Assembly: GCA_025966365.1 (NCBI GenBank)
Contig: JAICWV010000020.1
Span: 1 to 33,895 of the forward strand
Direction of reading: 5' to 3'
Length of the DNA stretch: 33,895 bases
Source of the DNA: Chloroflexota bacterium
Lineage (GTDB): Bacteria; Chloroflexota; UBA5177
Below the pieces are notes generated by a model. That model did no database searches, was not told the origin of the DNA, and saw nothing but the letters and a program-made list of their open reading frames with translations. A program made the position numbers and the translations under genes. Below, piece after piece: positions 5,325 to 10,830 of the stretch (its first letter is position 1; each line of letters starts with the position of its first letter).

Positions 5325-5354
5325 TTGTCCCTCGGCCAAACGGGCTGGTATCAT
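5325..5354 (+). promoter_or_regulatory. Promoter for the lipoprotein gene
   Basis: TTGTCC (5325-5330), an 18-base spacer and TATCAT (5349-5354), with TG one base before the -10 (extended -10, TGGTATCAT). Transcription would begin about 5361, which bears on the choice of the downstream start codon. Confidence 0.5.
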
Positions 5355-5357
5355 GCC

Positions 5358-6248
5358 GTGGTTTCCCGGGAGTTCGCCATTCGTCTCGTCTCACTTTCCT
5401 CTCTGTGCCTGATCGCACTGTTTATTTCTGCCTGCGGCAAAGATGTCGGCGCGTCATCGGCCACCTCCACCCCCACGCGTAAACACATCACGGCCACGTC
5501 GGTGCCGACAACCGCCCCCCTGTACGTTCAACCCACGGCCACTGCGTTCCCCACTGCCACGCCAGGACCCACCGATACCCCCACACCCCGCCCGACGCGG
5601 GTGAAGCCGACGGCGGTGCCTCCCGCGCAGCCGGGCAGCGTTCTGTCCGCGGTCGTCCAGCCGCTCAACGTCGACCCGCAAGCGACGCTCGACGCAACCG
5701 TGCGAACGTCGGGCGCGGTCACGCGCATCGAGGTCTATCTTGGATCCGGCGTCCCGGGAACATCGGGCCCCATCAGCACCACCTTGACCCAAACCGCCGC
5801 CGGAACATGGTCCGGCAGCTTCGGCGCACCGGCACGGCCCGGCTACTATCACTTCACCGTCGGCCTCTTCACCGGGGGCAGGCGAACCGTGATCGACAAC
5901 GACAACTGGAATATCAGGGTGCTCGAGCCCTCCAGCGCCGCACAGCCGCTGCCCGACAACATTCCTCTGGTGCCGCCGTTTAATTGGGGCAATCCAGTCG
6001 CCGCCACCTTCAGCGCCGACGGGCGCTCCGTCAACGGCTCGGAGGTCAGCAGCACCACCCGCTCCGACGTAACCGCGAGCTATGTGTCCCAATGGTACGC
6101 CAACCGCCTCCCTGCCTCCGGCTGGACCATCGTGCCCTCCACGCTTCCGGCGCAGGGCGCGACATCGTTCACCATCGTCGCCAACTCGGGCACGCAGGTC
6201 TGCGTCGTGCAGTATGCAGCGGGCACCGTCCACATCTTTTACGGCTAG
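5358..6248 (+). CDS. Predicted lipoprotein with Thr/Pro-rich spacer
   Basis: Function not recognised. The N-terminus is a lipoprotein signal: a hydrophobic stretch (LVSLSSLCLIALF) ending in the lipobox ISAC, so the mature protein should begin at a lipidated cysteine. A Thr/Pro/Ala-rich spacer of about 60 residues follows (TATPGPTDTPTPRPT), typical of surface proteins in Chloroflexota. Two folded-looking parts come next: a beta-rich segment (TLDATVRTSGAVTRIEVYLGSG to NWNIRVLE), resembling an Ig-like fold, and a C-terminal part ending VCVVQYAAGTVHIFYG. GTG 5358 lacks a Shine-Dalgarno; ATT 5379, six bases after GGGAG, would give a shorter, tidier signal peptide (see findings). The last 35 bases overlap the proposed start of the next gene. 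Confidence 0.8.
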   Translation: MVSREFAIRLVSLSSLCLIALFISACGKDVGASSATSTPTRKHITATSVPTTAPLYVQPTATAFPTATPGPTDTPTPRPTRVKPTAVPPAQPGSVLSAVVQPLNVDPQATLDATVRTSGAVTRIEVYLGSGVPGTSGPISTTLTQTAAGTWSGSFGAPARPGYYHFTVGLFTGGRRTVIDNDNWNIRVLEPSSAAQPLPDNIPLVPPFNWGNPVAATFSADGRSVNGSEVSSTTRSDVTASYVSQWYANRLPASGWTIVPSTLPAQGATSFTIVANSGTQVCVVQYAAGTVHIFYG

Positions 6249-7278
6249 CTCCGCGCAGCGGCTCCTGAACGATTTCGGACGCCGCCGGGTGCTCGTGCTC
6301 GGCGACATGGTGGTGGACGAATACATCGTGGGGCGCCCCGCCCGCATTTCCCGGGAGGCGCCGGTGCTGATCCTCCATCATTCCGACACCTTCATCCGGC
6401 CCGGTGGGGCCACCAACGCCGCGCATAACTTCAACGCTCTGGGCGCGCAAACGACTGTCATCGGCGTGATCGGTGACGACGAAACCGGGGCGCGGCTCCG
6501 GACGCTGCTGGAGGAGACCGGCATCGATGTCTCCGGCCTGGTGGTCGATTCCTCCCGGCCCACCTCGACCAAAACGCGCGTTCTGGCGAAGGGGACGCAG
6601 GAAGTCCAGCAGCAGATCGTCCGCATCGATCGTGTCGACACCAGCAGCGTGGACGGGTCCCTGCGCGACCGTATGATTGATATCTTCTGCCGCCTGGTGT
6701 CGGAAGCCGACGCCGTTCTCATCTCCGACTACGACAACGGAGTCATCTCACCGGAGATTCTCGACGCCTGCCTCCCGTCAGCGGCATCCTCCGGCAAGAT
6801 CGTCACCGTGGACTCGCACGGCGACCTCTTCCGCTTCCACGGCGTCACCGCCGCCACTCCCAATCAGCCGGAGGCCGAGGCCTCGGTCGGCTTTTCTATC
6901 CGCACCGAGGACGACCTGTGTCGCGCGGGCGAGCGGCTGGTCGAGGGCATGGACGCCGAGGGGGTGCTCATCACCCGCGGAAGCGAGGGAATCGCCCTGT
7001 TCGAGCGCCGCCGGGAGCCCTACCTGCTCCCCGTCTCCACCACGCGCCCGATCGATGTGGTCGACCCCAATGGCGCGGGCGATACCGTCTCCGCCGTCTT
7101 TACATTGGCCCTTGCCGGTGGCGCGGACATGCGGCTGGCCACCTACATATCCAACGTGGCAGGGGGAGAGGTGGTTCGCTACGCTGGTCCGGTCGCGCTC
7201 ACCGCCTCTCAGCTTGATGAGGTGCTTCGGCGCACCCGTCTGGAGACGCCTGCCGAAACCTATAATGAGTCCCCATGA
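6214..7278 (+). CDS. PfkB-family sugar kinase, heptose-7-phosphate kinase type
   Basis: Likely an ATP-dependent sugar kinase closest to the N-terminal (RfaE1/HldE) domain that phosphorylates D-glycero-D-manno-heptose 7-phosphate at C1. Evidence: VLGDMVVDEYIVGRPARISREAPV, RPGGATNAAHNFNALGA (substrate and first PfkB signature), TKTRVLA, VRIDR, LISDYDNG and the second PfkB signature DVVDPNGAGDT, whose Asp is the catalytic base. There is no cytidylyltransferase domain and no other heptose gene here, so the true sugar could differ. ATG 6214 overlaps the upstream gene by 35 bases and has a poor Shine-Dalgarno; it is the only ordinary codon that leaves the first strand intact. The stop overlaps the next ATG (ATGA). 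Confidence 0.82.
   Translation: MQRAPSTSFTASSAQRLLNDFGRRRVLVLGDMVVDEYIVGRPARISREAPVLILHHSDTFIRPGGATNAAHNFNALGAQTTVIGVIGDDETGARLRTLLEETGIDVSGLVVDSSRPTSTKTRVLAKGTQEVQQQIVRIDRVDTSSVDGSLRDRMIDIFCRLVSEADAVLISDYDNGVISPEILDACLPSAASSGKIVTVDSHGDLFRFHGVTAATPNQPEAEASVGFSIRTEDDLCRAGERLVEGMDAEGVLITRGSEGIALFERRREPYLLPVSTTRPIDVVDPNGAGDTVSAVFTLALAGGADMRLATYISNVAGGEVVRYAGPVALTASQLDEVLRRTRLETPAETYNESP
7261..7266 (+). promoter_or_regulatory. Possible internal -10 element before the asparaginase gene
   Basis: A perfect TATAAT lies inside the end of the kinase gene, eight bases before the asparaginase ATG at 7275. Transcription would start about 7273, making the message nearly leaderless. The -35 region is poor and there is no good Shine-Dalgarno, so this is only a candidate. 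Confidence 0.35.
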
Positions 7279-8342
7279 CGACCTCGGCGCAGCCCCGCGT
7301 ACGCATTTCGGTCCCGCATCACGCTTTCGCGGGCGACGTTCCGGTTGTCGCGGTGATGCGCGGCACCATGGTCGGCTCGCTGCACCGGGGTACCGCGGCC
7401 GTTGCCGACCCGGACGGCACGGTCCAGCTGGCACTGGGCGATCCATCGCAACCCGCCTTTCTGCGCTCGTCGGCCAAACCATTTCAGCTCCTTCCGGCGC
7501 TGGTGACCGGGGCCGTCGACCGGTTTGGAATCACAAACCGTGAGCTGGCAGTGCTGGCCGCCTCCCATAGCGCCGAGCCTCGCCACCAGGAAGCGGTGCT
7601 CTCCGCGCTGGAGAAGGCGGGCCTGACGGAGGAGGCGCTCCGCTGCGGCACCCACCCGCCGCTTCACGAAGCCACGGCGAAGCGGCAGGTCCAGGAAGGC
7701 AGAGCCCCATCTCCGGTGTGCAACAACTGCAGCGGCGCGCACGCCGGCATGCTGCTGGCCTGCAAGGCGGAGGGCTGGCCGCTGGAGAGCTACGGGCAGC
7801 CCGATCACCCGCTACAGCGTTTGACGCGCAAGCTCCTCGCGCAGTTCGCGGGAATGCGGGAGGATGATATCCGGTTTGCCGTGGACAACTGCGCGGTTCC
7901 CACCTTCCTTCTGCCTATCGAGAGCACCGCCACGGCCTTTGCCCGATTCGTCACCGGCCGCGGCGTCCCGGCAGATCTCGCCCGGGCGGCCGCGCGCATC
8001 TCCACCGCCATGCGCGAGAACCCCGGCATGGTCGGCGGTGAGGCACGGTTCGACACCGATCTGATGACCGCAGCCGGAGGGAGCATCCTGGCCAAGGGCG
8101 GCGCCGAAGGGTTTCAGGGTATCGGCCTGCCCGAACGCGGGCTGGGGATGGCCCTCAAGATCTCGGACGGCAACGCGCGGGCAGGTGCGCCGGTCACCCT
8201 GGAAATTCTGCGCCGCCTGGACCTGCTGGACGCGGAGACGCTGTCCCGGCTGCAGAGCTATGCGAACCCGGAGGTCCGCAACCATCAGGGTGAGCTGGTC
8301 GGCCGGCTCACCACCGTCTTCGAGATCGAGGGGCGGGCGTGA
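7275..8342 (+). CDS. Asparaginase, type II (Rhizobium etli family)
   Basis: Predicted to hydrolyse L-asparagine to aspartate and ammonia. It belongs to the Asparaginase_II family (R. etli ReAII/ReAV), unrelated to the E. coli enzymes. 355 residues. Conserved: LRSSAKPFQ (Ser65 and Lys68, equivalent to ReAV Ser48/Lys51), ASHSAEPRHQEAV (Ser97, equivalent to Ser80), CNNCSG (Cys152, equivalent to Cys135), DNCAVPTF (Cys206, equivalent to Cys189) and ILAKGGAEG. The residue matching the zinc ligand Lys138 is Ala155 (CSGAHAG where CSGKHAG is usual), a notable change. The start overlaps the previous stop (ATGA) and the end overlaps ddl (GTGA), so coupling is likely, perhaps with a promoter of its own. 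Confidence 0.9.
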   Translation: MTTSAQPRVRISVPHHAFAGDVPVVAVMRGTMVGSLHRGTAAVADPDGTVQLALGDPSQPAFLRSSAKPFQLLPALVTGAVDRFGITNRELAVLAASHSAEPRHQEAVLSALEKAGLTEEALRCGTHPPLHEATAKRQVQEGRAPSPVCNNCSGAHAGMLLACKAEGWPLESYGQPDHPLQRLTRKLLAQFAGMREDDIRFAVDNCAVPTFLLPIESTATAFARFVTGRGVPADLARAAARISTAMRENPGMVGGEARFDTDLMTAAGGSILAKGGAEGFQGIGLPERGLGMALKISDGNARAGAPVTLEILRRLDLLDAETLSRLQSYANPEVRNHQGELVGRLTTVFEIEGRA

Positions 8343-9436
8343 CGCGCAAGCTGCGCGTGGGTCTCGTCTTCGGCGGGAGGTCGGGAGAGCACGAGGTGTC
8401 TCTGGCGTCGGCCTCCTCGGTGATGAAAGCCCTCGATACCAGCCGCTATGACGCCGTGCCCATCGGCATTACCAGAGGCGGCCAGTGGCTGATCGCCGAT
8501 TCGCCTGAGCGTCTGCTCGAGGCGGGAGAGGTCACGCTGGAGTTGCCCGATACCACCGAGGCCATGCTGGATGTGACCCACCACGGCATTGTCCCGGTTA
8601 ACAGCCGGGGCGGCATCGACCGACACGAGACCGCGGTTGACGTCGTGTTTCCCCTTCTCCACGGTCCCTTCGGGGAGGACGGAACCATTCAAGGCATGCT
8701 GGAGCTTGCCGATATCCCCTATGTCGGGGCCGGCGTCTTCGCGTCGTCAGCGGCCATGGACAAGGGCCACATGAAGCGTCTCTTTCGGGAGGCGGGAATC
8801 CCCAGCGGCCACTGGATGGTGGTCAAGCCGCTGGCCTGGGAGCGCGAGCGCAAGGCCGTGCTTTACGGTGCCATGTCGCAGCTGGCCTTTCCCATGTTCG
8901 TCAAGCCGTGCAATCTGGGGTCGAGCGTGGGCATCTCGCGGGTAACCGACCGGGAGGAGCTGGAAGCAGCCATCGAGCGCGCCCGCCTCTACGACCGCCG
9001 CGTCATTGTCGAAGAGGGCGTGGACGGCCGCGAGATCGAGTGCAGCGTGCTCGGCAACGACGAGCCGCTGGTCTCCGTTCCCGGTGAAGTCATCTCCCAC
9101 CATGACTTCTACGATTACGAGTCCAAATACACCGAGGGTCTGGCCGACCTGATCATCCCGGCTTCTCTCGCCGCCGACGAGTACCGCGAGGTTCGCAAGC
9201 TTGCGCTGCGGGCCTTTGAGGCCGTTGATGCGTCGGGCCTGGCGCGGGTTGACTTCTTCCGGCGCCACAGCGACGGCGCGTGGCTGGTGAACGAGATCAA
9301 CACCATGCCCGGCTTCACCTCCACCAGCATGTATCCCAAGCTGTGGGAAGCCAGCGGGGTGTCGTATAGTGAGCTAATCGATCGCCTCATCCAGCTGGCG
9401 CTGGAGCGGCATCGGTCCAGGCCCCAACCCAGCTAG
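8339..9436 (+). CDS. ddl: D-alanine--D-alanine ligase
   Basis: Makes the D-Ala-D-Ala dipeptide for peptidoglycan in the cytosol. 365 residues with the expected order: N-terminal LVFGGRSGEHEVSLASA, central PLLHGPFGEDGTIQGMLELADIPYVG, then the ATP-grasp part with KPCNLGSSVGISRV, EEGVDGREIECSVLG and the metal/active-site segment VNEINTMPGFTSTSMYPKLW. The start is GTG 8339, overlapping the asparaginase stop as GTGA. Final residues are charged and variable. No vancomycin-type (D-Lac) feature stands out, but I cannot exclude it by eye. Other wall genes (murE, femX-like) lie about 20 kb away in this window, not in the same operon. Confidence 0.96.
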   Translation: MTRKLRVGLVFGGRSGEHEVSLASASSVMKALDTSRYDAVPIGITRGGQWLIADSPERLLEAGEVTLELPDTTEAMLDVTHHGIVPVNSRGGIDRHETAVDVVFPLLHGPFGEDGTIQGMLELADIPYVGAGVFASSAAMDKGHMKRLFREAGIPSGHWMVVKPLAWERERKAVLYGAMSQLAFPMFVKPCNLGSSVGISRVTDREELEAAIERARLYDRRVIVEEGVDGREIECSVLGNDEPLVSVPGEVISHHDFYDYESKYTEGLADLIIPASLAADEYREVRKLALRAFEAVDASGLARVDFFRRHSDGAWLVNEINTMPGFTSTSMYPKLWEASGVSYSELIDRLIQLALERHRSRPQPS

Positions 9437-9480: not shown

Positions 9481-10443
9481 ATGAAGCGAACGCTCGCGTT
9501 GGTCGTGGTTGCGGCCGTGATGGGCGCCCTGTTTGTGAGCGGGCAGACCCAAGCCGAAGGCATTTTCCCCGGCTCGATTTCGGGCACGGGCCCCGTCGCC
9601 ACTGTTGGGTGCGTGTCGGTGCCCAAGCGGACACCATGTCCCACCGCGGGCCCTGCGACCATTACACCGCTCTTGCCGGTCAAGAGCATGTCGGTGTCAC
9701 CCGCCAGCTCGGGACCCCTGGGCGTGAACTCGTACACCGTCAATATCGTCTCTCAGATCGGCTGCTTTAGCCTGACCGAGCCGGTCCTTGTTACTGCACT
9801 GGGCAACAGTGGAGAGGCGGTGTTCCGGCAGGTGGATCCGCCGGTGGTCGGCGGAAATCCCTTTGTTGTCAACGTGGTTCCCTCGGGGTCGGGCACGGCC
9901 ACTCTGTCTCTCGAAGTCTGGACGGCGAAGGTCGGTCCCGGCGGTCTGGTCGTGAAGGCCATCTGGCCGGAAGAAAACGTGGAGCAGGTTCAGAGAATCA
10001 TCGAGCAAACGTCGCAGCCGGCCCCAACCGGCGCTCCGGCCACGGCCACTGCTGTGACGCCCACGCCGACGGACACGCCGGGAACAGGCGCCACCCCGGC
10101 CGCAACCAGCACACCCGCTCCCACGGTCACATCCACGCCGGCCCCGCTCACGGTTGCAACCTGCTACTCGCCCGGGACCTCGGCGATCGACATCCGGTCT
10201 CTACCCGGGGCGAGCTGCACGCTCTCACTGACCCTGAATCAGGGGCTCCTTCCGGCCACTACCTATAACCAGGGCCCGTTTATCATTCCGTCGACCGGCG
10301 TCGGCGAGGTTCCCTTTACTCCAGCACCCACCTCCAGCCAGGGTACGGCGGTTACCACCTGCTCCTTCGGCGGCCAGACGGAAGCAGACACGCTCGCTTT
10401 CACGCTGCCTCTACCGCCGACTCCGATACCAACAAGTCCCTGA
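9481..10443 (+). CDS. Secreted protein with Thr/Pro-rich linker, function unknown
   Basis: Not recognised. It starts with a Sec signal peptide (MKRTLALVVVAAVMGALFVSG, likely cleavage after QTQA), has no further membrane segment, and should be released or held at the surface. Residues of about 30-170 look beta-rich (VGCVSVP, SYTVNIVSQIGCFSLTEPVLV, TATLSLEVWTAKVG). A Pro/Thr/Ala linker spans roughly 180-220, followed by a second compact part with several cysteines (ATCYSPGTSAIDIRSLPGASCTLSLT, TTCSFGGQ) and a TPIPTSP tail. The start ATG has a good Shine-Dalgarno (GAGGGAGAG directly upstream). It closes the plus-strand run that began at hutI and is followed by the repeat region. Confidence 0.8.
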   Translation: MKRTLALVVVAAVMGALFVSGQTQAEGIFPGSISGTGPVATVGCVSVPKRTPCPTAGPATITPLLPVKSMSVSPASSGPLGVNSYTVNIVSQIGCFSLTEPVLVTALGNSGEAVFRQVDPPVVGGNPFVVNVVPSGSGTATLSLEVWTAKVGPGGLVVKAIWPEENVEQVQRIIEQTSQPAPTGAPATATAVTPTPTDTPGTGATPAATSTPAPTVTSTPAPLTVATCYSPGTSAIDIRSLPGASCTLSLTLNQGLLPATTYNQGPFIIPSTGVGEVPFTPAPTSSQGTAVTTCSFGGQTEADTLAFTLPLPPTPIPTSP

Positions 10444-10517: not shown

Positions 10518-10571
10518 TGTCGGGGCGATGTGCAATCCGCTGAGATGTAGGGGCGATTTTGCAATCGCCCG
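10518..10571 (+). repeat. Left arm of intergenic inverted repeat
   Basis: 54 bases, beginning TGTCGGGGCGAT and containing TGAGATGTAGGGGCGAT and GCAATCGCCCG. About 47 of 54 positions match the reverse complement of the right arm, with one gap. The arm is itself two related units (GTCGGGGCGAT and GTAGGGGCGAT). Directly inside it lies a 7-base-pair hairpin (GCCGCTC, CACA loop, GAGCGGC; 10571-10588). Confidence 0.8.
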
Positions 10572-10746
10572 CCGCTCCACAGAGCGGCTTTGGTGCATGC
10601 ATCTCCAGAGCATGCCTTCGCGTCACAGGTGTGGTCGGGGCCGATCCCCCGGTTCCACCTGCTGCGGCAGGGACCCGGAAAGACTCGCCTGTTCCCGAGA
10701 CCCATATCCCTGGGTGGCGGGCACCGGAAGCTGTGCTGAGGCACAG

Positions 10747-10799
10747 CGGGCGATTGCACATCGCCCCTACATCTCAACCGAGTACAAATCGCCCCGACA
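10747..10799 (-). repeat. Right arm of intergenic inverted repeat
   Basis: 53 bases, the reverse-complement partner of 10518-10571. Directly inside it is another 7-base-pair hairpin (GCTGTGC, TGAG loop, GCACAGC; 10730-10747), so both arms are capped in the same way. Confidence 0.8.
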
Positions 10800-10809
10800 T
10801 CTCAGGCTC

Positions 10810-10830
10810 GCGATTGCAAATCGCCCCTAC
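10810..10830 (-). repeat. Extra single repeat unit
   Basis: GCGATTGCAAATCGCCCCTAC, the same unit as in the arms, in the orientation of the right arm. GCGATT and AATCGC are themselves inverted around GCA, so each unit can form a small stem. Confidence 0.65.

Follow-up and report, generated by a model that had tools for sequence, protein, structure and literature searches.

A predicted class 3 L-asparaginase of Chloroflexota with alanine at the zinc-site lysine position and asparagine beside the second cysteine ligand

The window, a stretch of 33,895 nucleotides from a Chloroflexota genome (GenBank assembly GCA_025966365.1, contig JAICWV010000020.1), carries a class 3 L-asparaginase gene (PF06089) at 7275..8342 on the forward strand, an open reading frame of 355 amino acids that overlaps its neighbors at both ends: in an ATGA its start lies over the preceding stop, and in a GTGA its stop lies over the next start. 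The upstream neighbor is a pfkB-family sugar kinase (6163..7278, forward strand, start codon provisional) and the downstream neighbor a D-alanine-D-alanine ligase (8339..9436, forward strand). As far as the compared stretches reach, the window's Chloroflexota family, here called f1 and represented by five species, has the gene order ribonucleotide reductase, amidohydrolase, formiminotransferase, an open reading frame without Pfam match, pfkB kinase, asparaginase and ligase. In G004 the kinase was not found between the open reading frame without Pfam match and the asparaginase, and in G005, the sister of f1, only the asparaginase-ligase pair is kept among the probes used. Two open reading frames without Pfam match (5325-6245 and 9481-10440) flank the kinase-asparaginase-ligase block and are partly conserved there in other f1 members. 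The intergenic region 10518-10830, between an unknown open reading frame and a response regulator gene, contains a cluster of direct repeats of 21 nt together with inverted repeats of 40 nt that show 88% complementarity.

Class 3 asparaginases are under study as drug candidates against leukemia. The product of the 7275-8342 frame is, by family, an asparaginase of this class (ReAIV/ReAV-type) with predicted activity, as it matches PF06089 (Asparaginase_II) with E = 1.7e-114 and 382.6 bits against a curated cut-off of 25. Its closest solved relatives are ReAIV and ReAV of R. etli (ReAIV by phmmer, 2.5e-57). A structure predicted with AlphaFold2 on the basis of four sequences (mean pLDDT 77.1, pTM 0.82) showed the class 3 fold in a Foldseek search, where ranks 1-41 were all ReAIV or ReAV (TM 0.78-0.81) and were followed by beta-lactamase-like folds with a query TM of at most 0.40; the model matched ReAIV 8clz with TM 0.80 and the ReAV K138A variant with L-Asn, 9g68, with TM 0.81. 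The genome (3.59 Mb, 97.4% complete) holds one PF06089 copy, and a Pfam search of it found no PF00710, PF01112 or glutaminase PF04960, which rules out a second asparaginase relaxing selection on the one in the window. PF00710 and PF01112 asparaginases were likewise found in none of the five f1 genomes, three of which are less than 90% complete, so that the PF06089 protein is the only recognizable asparaginase there.

Residues were numbered by alignment with a plasmid-borne ReAV-type protein of R. etli, to which the window protein runs at a constant offset of 17 through Arg47/64, Ser48/65, Lys51/68, Gln54/71, Ser80/97, Cys135/152, Lys138/155, His139/156, Tyr156/173, Asp187/204 and Cys189/206; an indel then lowers the offset to 11, and Lys263 aligns with Lys274. 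The alignment agrees with the initial annotation, which had given this offset for the two serines and two cysteines and had judged both Ser-Lys pairs to be kept. The first tandem is Ser65...Lys68 (7467..7478, forward strand), equivalent to the nucleophile Ser48 and Lys51, and the second is formed by Ser97 (7563..7565, forward strand), equivalent to Ser80, and Lys274 (8094..8096, forward strand). The stretch originally singled out, 7722-7895, spans codons 150-207 and contains the metal site. There, the zinc ligands Cys135 and Cys189 have their equivalents in Cys152 (7728..7730) and Cys206 (7890..7892), and Asp187, essential in ReAV (PMC11024299), in Asp204 (7884..7886), all on the forward strand. 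The classical Cys-Lys-Cys ligand set is nonetheless incomplete: as had been proposed, the position of zinc ligand Lys138 is taken by Ala155, codon GCG (7737..7739, forward strand). A second change in the same stretch had been missed. The position of Gly188, one residue before the second cysteine ligand, is occupied by Asn205, codon AAC (7887..7889, forward strand), which co-varies with residue 155. At residue 34 (7374-7376), the equivalent of a ReAV glutamate, Glu17, that forms a bridge to the partner subunit's Arg47 (PMC12292245), the window protein has Gly; Gly or Asn is found there in four of the five f1 members, whereas 155 of the 161 Chloroflexota proteins have Glu.

The loss of the lysine is common to the whole family. 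Lys138 is present in none of the five f1 species, four of which have Ala and one Val, and residue 188 is Asn in the four Ala species and Thr in the Val species. In a 39-row tree computed without both trait columns (138 and 188) the five form one clade (bootstrap 99, SH-aLRT 92), whose sister G005, from the same order, has Lys/Gly at the two positions (support 100/97). The initial annotation had asked whether Ala155 defines a clade; it is the loss of lysine, to Ala or Val, that does so. Further f1-specific changes lie at residues 75, 174, 207 and 212, in addition to the replacement of Glu17. The codons at position 155 in f1 are GCG, GCG, GCT, GCG and GTG, as against AAA in the sister, and a step from Lys to Ala needs at least two base changes. 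A base error at this codon, which had been raised as a possible objection, is contradicted by the other f1 species, each with its own codon (GCG, GCT, GCG and GTG). More broadly, gene decay or an error in sequencing or assembly could be imagined given that the f1 assemblies are all drafts, but five species with their own codons, reading frames without internal stops, and conserved catalytic residues and gene order leave this explanation next to no probability, and we regard it as ruled out.

A horizontal origin of the lysine-less form is not supported, because the gene order is shared through f1 and the asparaginase-ligase pair also occurs in the lysine-bearing sister. Nor can one single loss account for all lysine-less proteins, as the trees require a minimum of three changes between Lys and non-Lys (39 rows) or five (161 rows). 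A pattern search of the named genomes in the sequence collection with NNCSG[A/V]H..[G/A]M, which misses L033 (Gln for Met) and motifs such as HMCSGAH, returned only three stretches, all from f1. Viral relatives gave 21 pattern matches, none of them confirmed.

The survey of the phylum comprised 161 Chloroflexota rows from 160 genomes. Ten short, broken or weaker matches among 110 matching genomes were left out (G056, G146, G200, G226, G277, G307, G332, G350, G362 and G386), and from another search with 92 matching genomes the survey did not take up the rows of G446, G447, G453, G277 and G362, nor the second fragments of G426 and G432. Lys138 is present in 65 of the 161 proteins and absent from 96, but these numbers should not be read as a phylum-wide frequency since one family, f21, is over-represented with 88 rows; broken down by family, the lysine occurs in 2/88 f21 proteins, 0/5 in f1 and 63/68 in the rest. 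Both cysteines are found in 161/161 proteins, with or without Lys138, and the same holds for the equivalents of Arg47, Ser80, His139, Tyr156 and Asp187. The lysine thus appears to be a replaceable ligand, whereas the cysteines are not. The initial annotation had also considered that lysine might not be the ligand in most members of the family. Outside Chloroflexota this does not hold, with Lys/Gly at 138/188 in all 13 outgroup proteins (bacteria of other phyla) and conservation of Lys138 reported for 97% of orthologues in PMC11024299, where the lysine-bearing zinc site is treated as near-invariant; within our phylum sample it does hold. The window protein accordingly falls outside the classical metal-site type and still inside PF06089.

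Family f21 deserves separate mention. There, Lys138 is replaced by Gln, Phe, Met, Tyr, Ala, Asn or Pro in 86/88 proteins, mostly by Gln, and Gln54 and Asn134 are often changed too; a distant copy of the Lys type is present in two f21 genomes (L124 and L125). In two f21 proteins (L109 from G319 and L110 from G218) the catalytic Lys51 is replaced by His in the motif RSAGHPFG. In another (L188 from G473) the equivalents of Ser48, Lys51 and Lys138 are Ala, Ala and Pro, with both cysteines kept, and this protein is possibly a pseudoenzyme or an error.

The consequences of losing the lysine can be judged from the R. etli enzymes. According to the papers cited here, the metal of ReAV anchors the substrate and Ser48 is the nucleophile. 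Cys to Ala replacement at either ligand abolishes activity, and the K138A mutant retains about 1.5% of it (kcat 4.8 vs 416 per s) with eight-fold weaker zinc binding (KD 25.6 vs 3.3 uM); optimal zinc boosts the activity of the mutant by 467%, and its KM falls to 0.5 mM with 10 uM Zn (PMC11024299). When zinc is left out, the kcat/KM of this mutant is 2.2 per s per mM. In ReAIV, K137A with zinc has a kcat of 158 vs 770 per s (PMC10917881). Turnover, zinc affinity and KM are hence all reported to shift upon loss of the lysine (PMC11024299, PMC10917881). The K138A crystal contains no zinc and has Lys51 shifted, and one chain displays alternative conformers with a partial Cys135-Cys189 disulfide (PMC11024299). 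From this last observation it could be supposed that the f1 proteins have lost metal binding and put their two cysteines to other use, such as a disulfide. We consider this quite improbable, as the mutant still binds zinc in solution and neither cysteine of ReAV can be dispensed with. The retention of the cysteine pair together with the equivalents of Asp187, Arg47, His139, Tyr156 and Ser80 in proteins without the lysine speaks for continued use of the metal site.

Positions 138 and 188 are coupled. Mutual information with average-product correction was calculated for all column pairs over 174 aligned proteins, and the pair 155-205 (ReAV 138-188) ranked first of 48,828 pairs with 62% weighting (z 8.8, effective number 48) and seventh of 50,403 with 80% weighting (effective number 125). 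After exclusion of f1 (five proteins) its rank was 35 of 45,753 and 40 of 47,895, within the top 0.1%, and among the 91 lysine-less proteins outside f1 it ranked 5 of 43,071 and 10 of 44,253, with 205 as the best partner of 155. Position 155 is also coupled with 71 and 151, the equivalents of Gln54 and Asn134; in ReAV, two waters link Gln54 to Lys138 (PMC8602277). Wherever residue 138 is Lys, residue 188 is Gly (65/65 Chloroflexota and 13/13 outgroup proteins). With Lys, Gln, Asn or Tyr at 138, residue 188 is mostly Gly or Ala, and the other pairs are A-N, V-T, F-D and M-Q. Asn, Thr, Asp or Gln is found at 188 in 17 of the 20 proteins with Ala, Val, Phe, Met or Pro at 138, as compared with Ser or Glu in 6 of the 141 others. 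The nonpolar/polar grouping, unlike the all-pairs ranking, was picked after the pairs had been seen. Three proteins run counter to the pattern by combining a nonpolar residue 138 with a residue 188 that is not polar (A/G twice and P/A once), and the P/A protein also lacks Ser48 and Lys51. Phylogeny calls for caution here, as on supported branches the nonpolar-138 and polar-188 combination has only about three origins; independent contrasts over random pairings gave 3.0 in agreement, 0.1 in disagreement and 0.9 ties (sign test, median p 0.25), about three contrasts being too few to reach significance.

The small number of independent origins is in line with another explanation, in which the family tolerates a weakened zinc site like that of ReAV K138A, slow and with better apparent affinity in the presence of zinc, and Asn205 is a neutral passenger. 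The residual turnover of ReAV K138A, and the higher turnover of ReAIV K137A with zinc, make such an enzyme conceivable. On the other hand, a passenger fits poorly with a coupling that persists without f1 and with the invariable Gly188 in proteins that have Lys138, and we therefore hold this explanation to be rather unlikely, with something like one chance in four.

We favor, with about an even chance of being right, the reading that the window encodes a genuine, selected class 3 asparaginase with a variant but working metal site, where the polar group lost with the lysine would be supplied by residue 188. According to this reading, the lysine of an ancestral site of Cys, Lys, Cys and water would have disappeared a single time, on the f1 stem, accompanied by the change of Gly188 to Asn or Thr; Cys152 and Cys206 most likely still bind metal, Asn205 would make up for the missing lysine, and Ser65 would, like Ser48 of ReAV, attack the amide of the side chain. 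In ReAV, the main-chain nitrogen of residue 188 makes contact with a sulfate located next to the metal water and to Arg47 (PMC11024299, PMC12292245), and a side chain at 188 should consequently lie near the metal, the lysine site and the substrate carboxylate; it may reach the metal. Covariation makes Asn205 a concrete candidate for the additional ligand that the initial annotation had left unnamed. Retained function is suggested by the conservation of the whole catalytic set, the maintenance of the locus and the lack of PF00710 and PF01112 asparaginases in the five f1 genomes, and we infer that activity is retained in f1 with Asn205 as the compensating residue. However, the other f1-specific changes (75, 174, 207, 212 and Glu17) could equally be the compensation.

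A more far-reaching version, which we consider less likely than not, is that the third zinc ligand is movable, that the side chain at 188 would become the ligand when Lys138 is lost, and that this may have arisen several times in Chloroflexota. The ligand at 188 would then be Asn or Thr in f1 and, in another family, Asp where residue 138 is Phe and Gln where it is Met. The remodeled pocket (155, 174, 205, 207 and 212) could alternatively act on an amide other than L-Asn. Several f1-specific residues lie beside active-site residues in sequence, and the asparaginase gene overlaps that of the D-Ala-D-Ala ligase, both of which would suit a changed substrate. Yet the ligase pairing already exists in the lysine-bearing sister and does not explain the residue change, the nucleophile, both tandems and the Arg47 and Asp187 equivalents are all kept, and no other recognizable asparaginase occurs in the five f1 genomes; a changed substrate thus seems improbable to us.

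In the open-licence literature, searched by titles and the beginnings of abstracts, we found no description of a natural lineage-level loss of the zinc-site lysine or of coupling between 138 and 188. A natural lysine-less lineage with one coupled change provides a direct and inexpensive test of the role of the lysine, and the change in the neighboring residue suggests that nature may have compensated for a replacement that cripples the laboratory enzyme. Our favored reading predicts that a G188N or G188T partner change would restore function to the published ReAV K138A.

Among known systems, the constitutive R. etli enzyme ReAIV (class 3 type AIV, PDB 8cly) is the best match in sequence and structure (phmmer 2.5e-57; TM 0.80) but, unlike the window protein, keeps the lysine ligand and the glycine beside the second cysteine. 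The f21 homologues resemble the window protein in lacking Lys138 (86/88) and keeping both cysteines, and differ from it in having mostly Gln at 138, in the frequent changes of Gln54 and Asn134, and in forming a clade separate from f1. With ReAV, the inducible R. etli L-asparaginase (class 3 type AV, PDB 7os3 series), the window protein has in common the Pfam family, the fold (TM 0.81), both cysteine ligands, both Ser-Lys tandems and the equivalents of Arg47, His139, Tyr156 and Asp187, at about 33% identity; it differs by Ala for Lys138, Asn for Gly188, Gly for His157, Val for Glu60 and Asp for Cys249. The closest parallel is the ReAV K138A mutant (PDB 8rud, 9g68 and 9sdk), laboratory-made and characterized (PMC11024299), which has the same ligand change; in this mutant Gly188 and the remainder of the ReAV pocket are unaltered, whereas the natural protein carries Asn205 along with further f1-specific residues.
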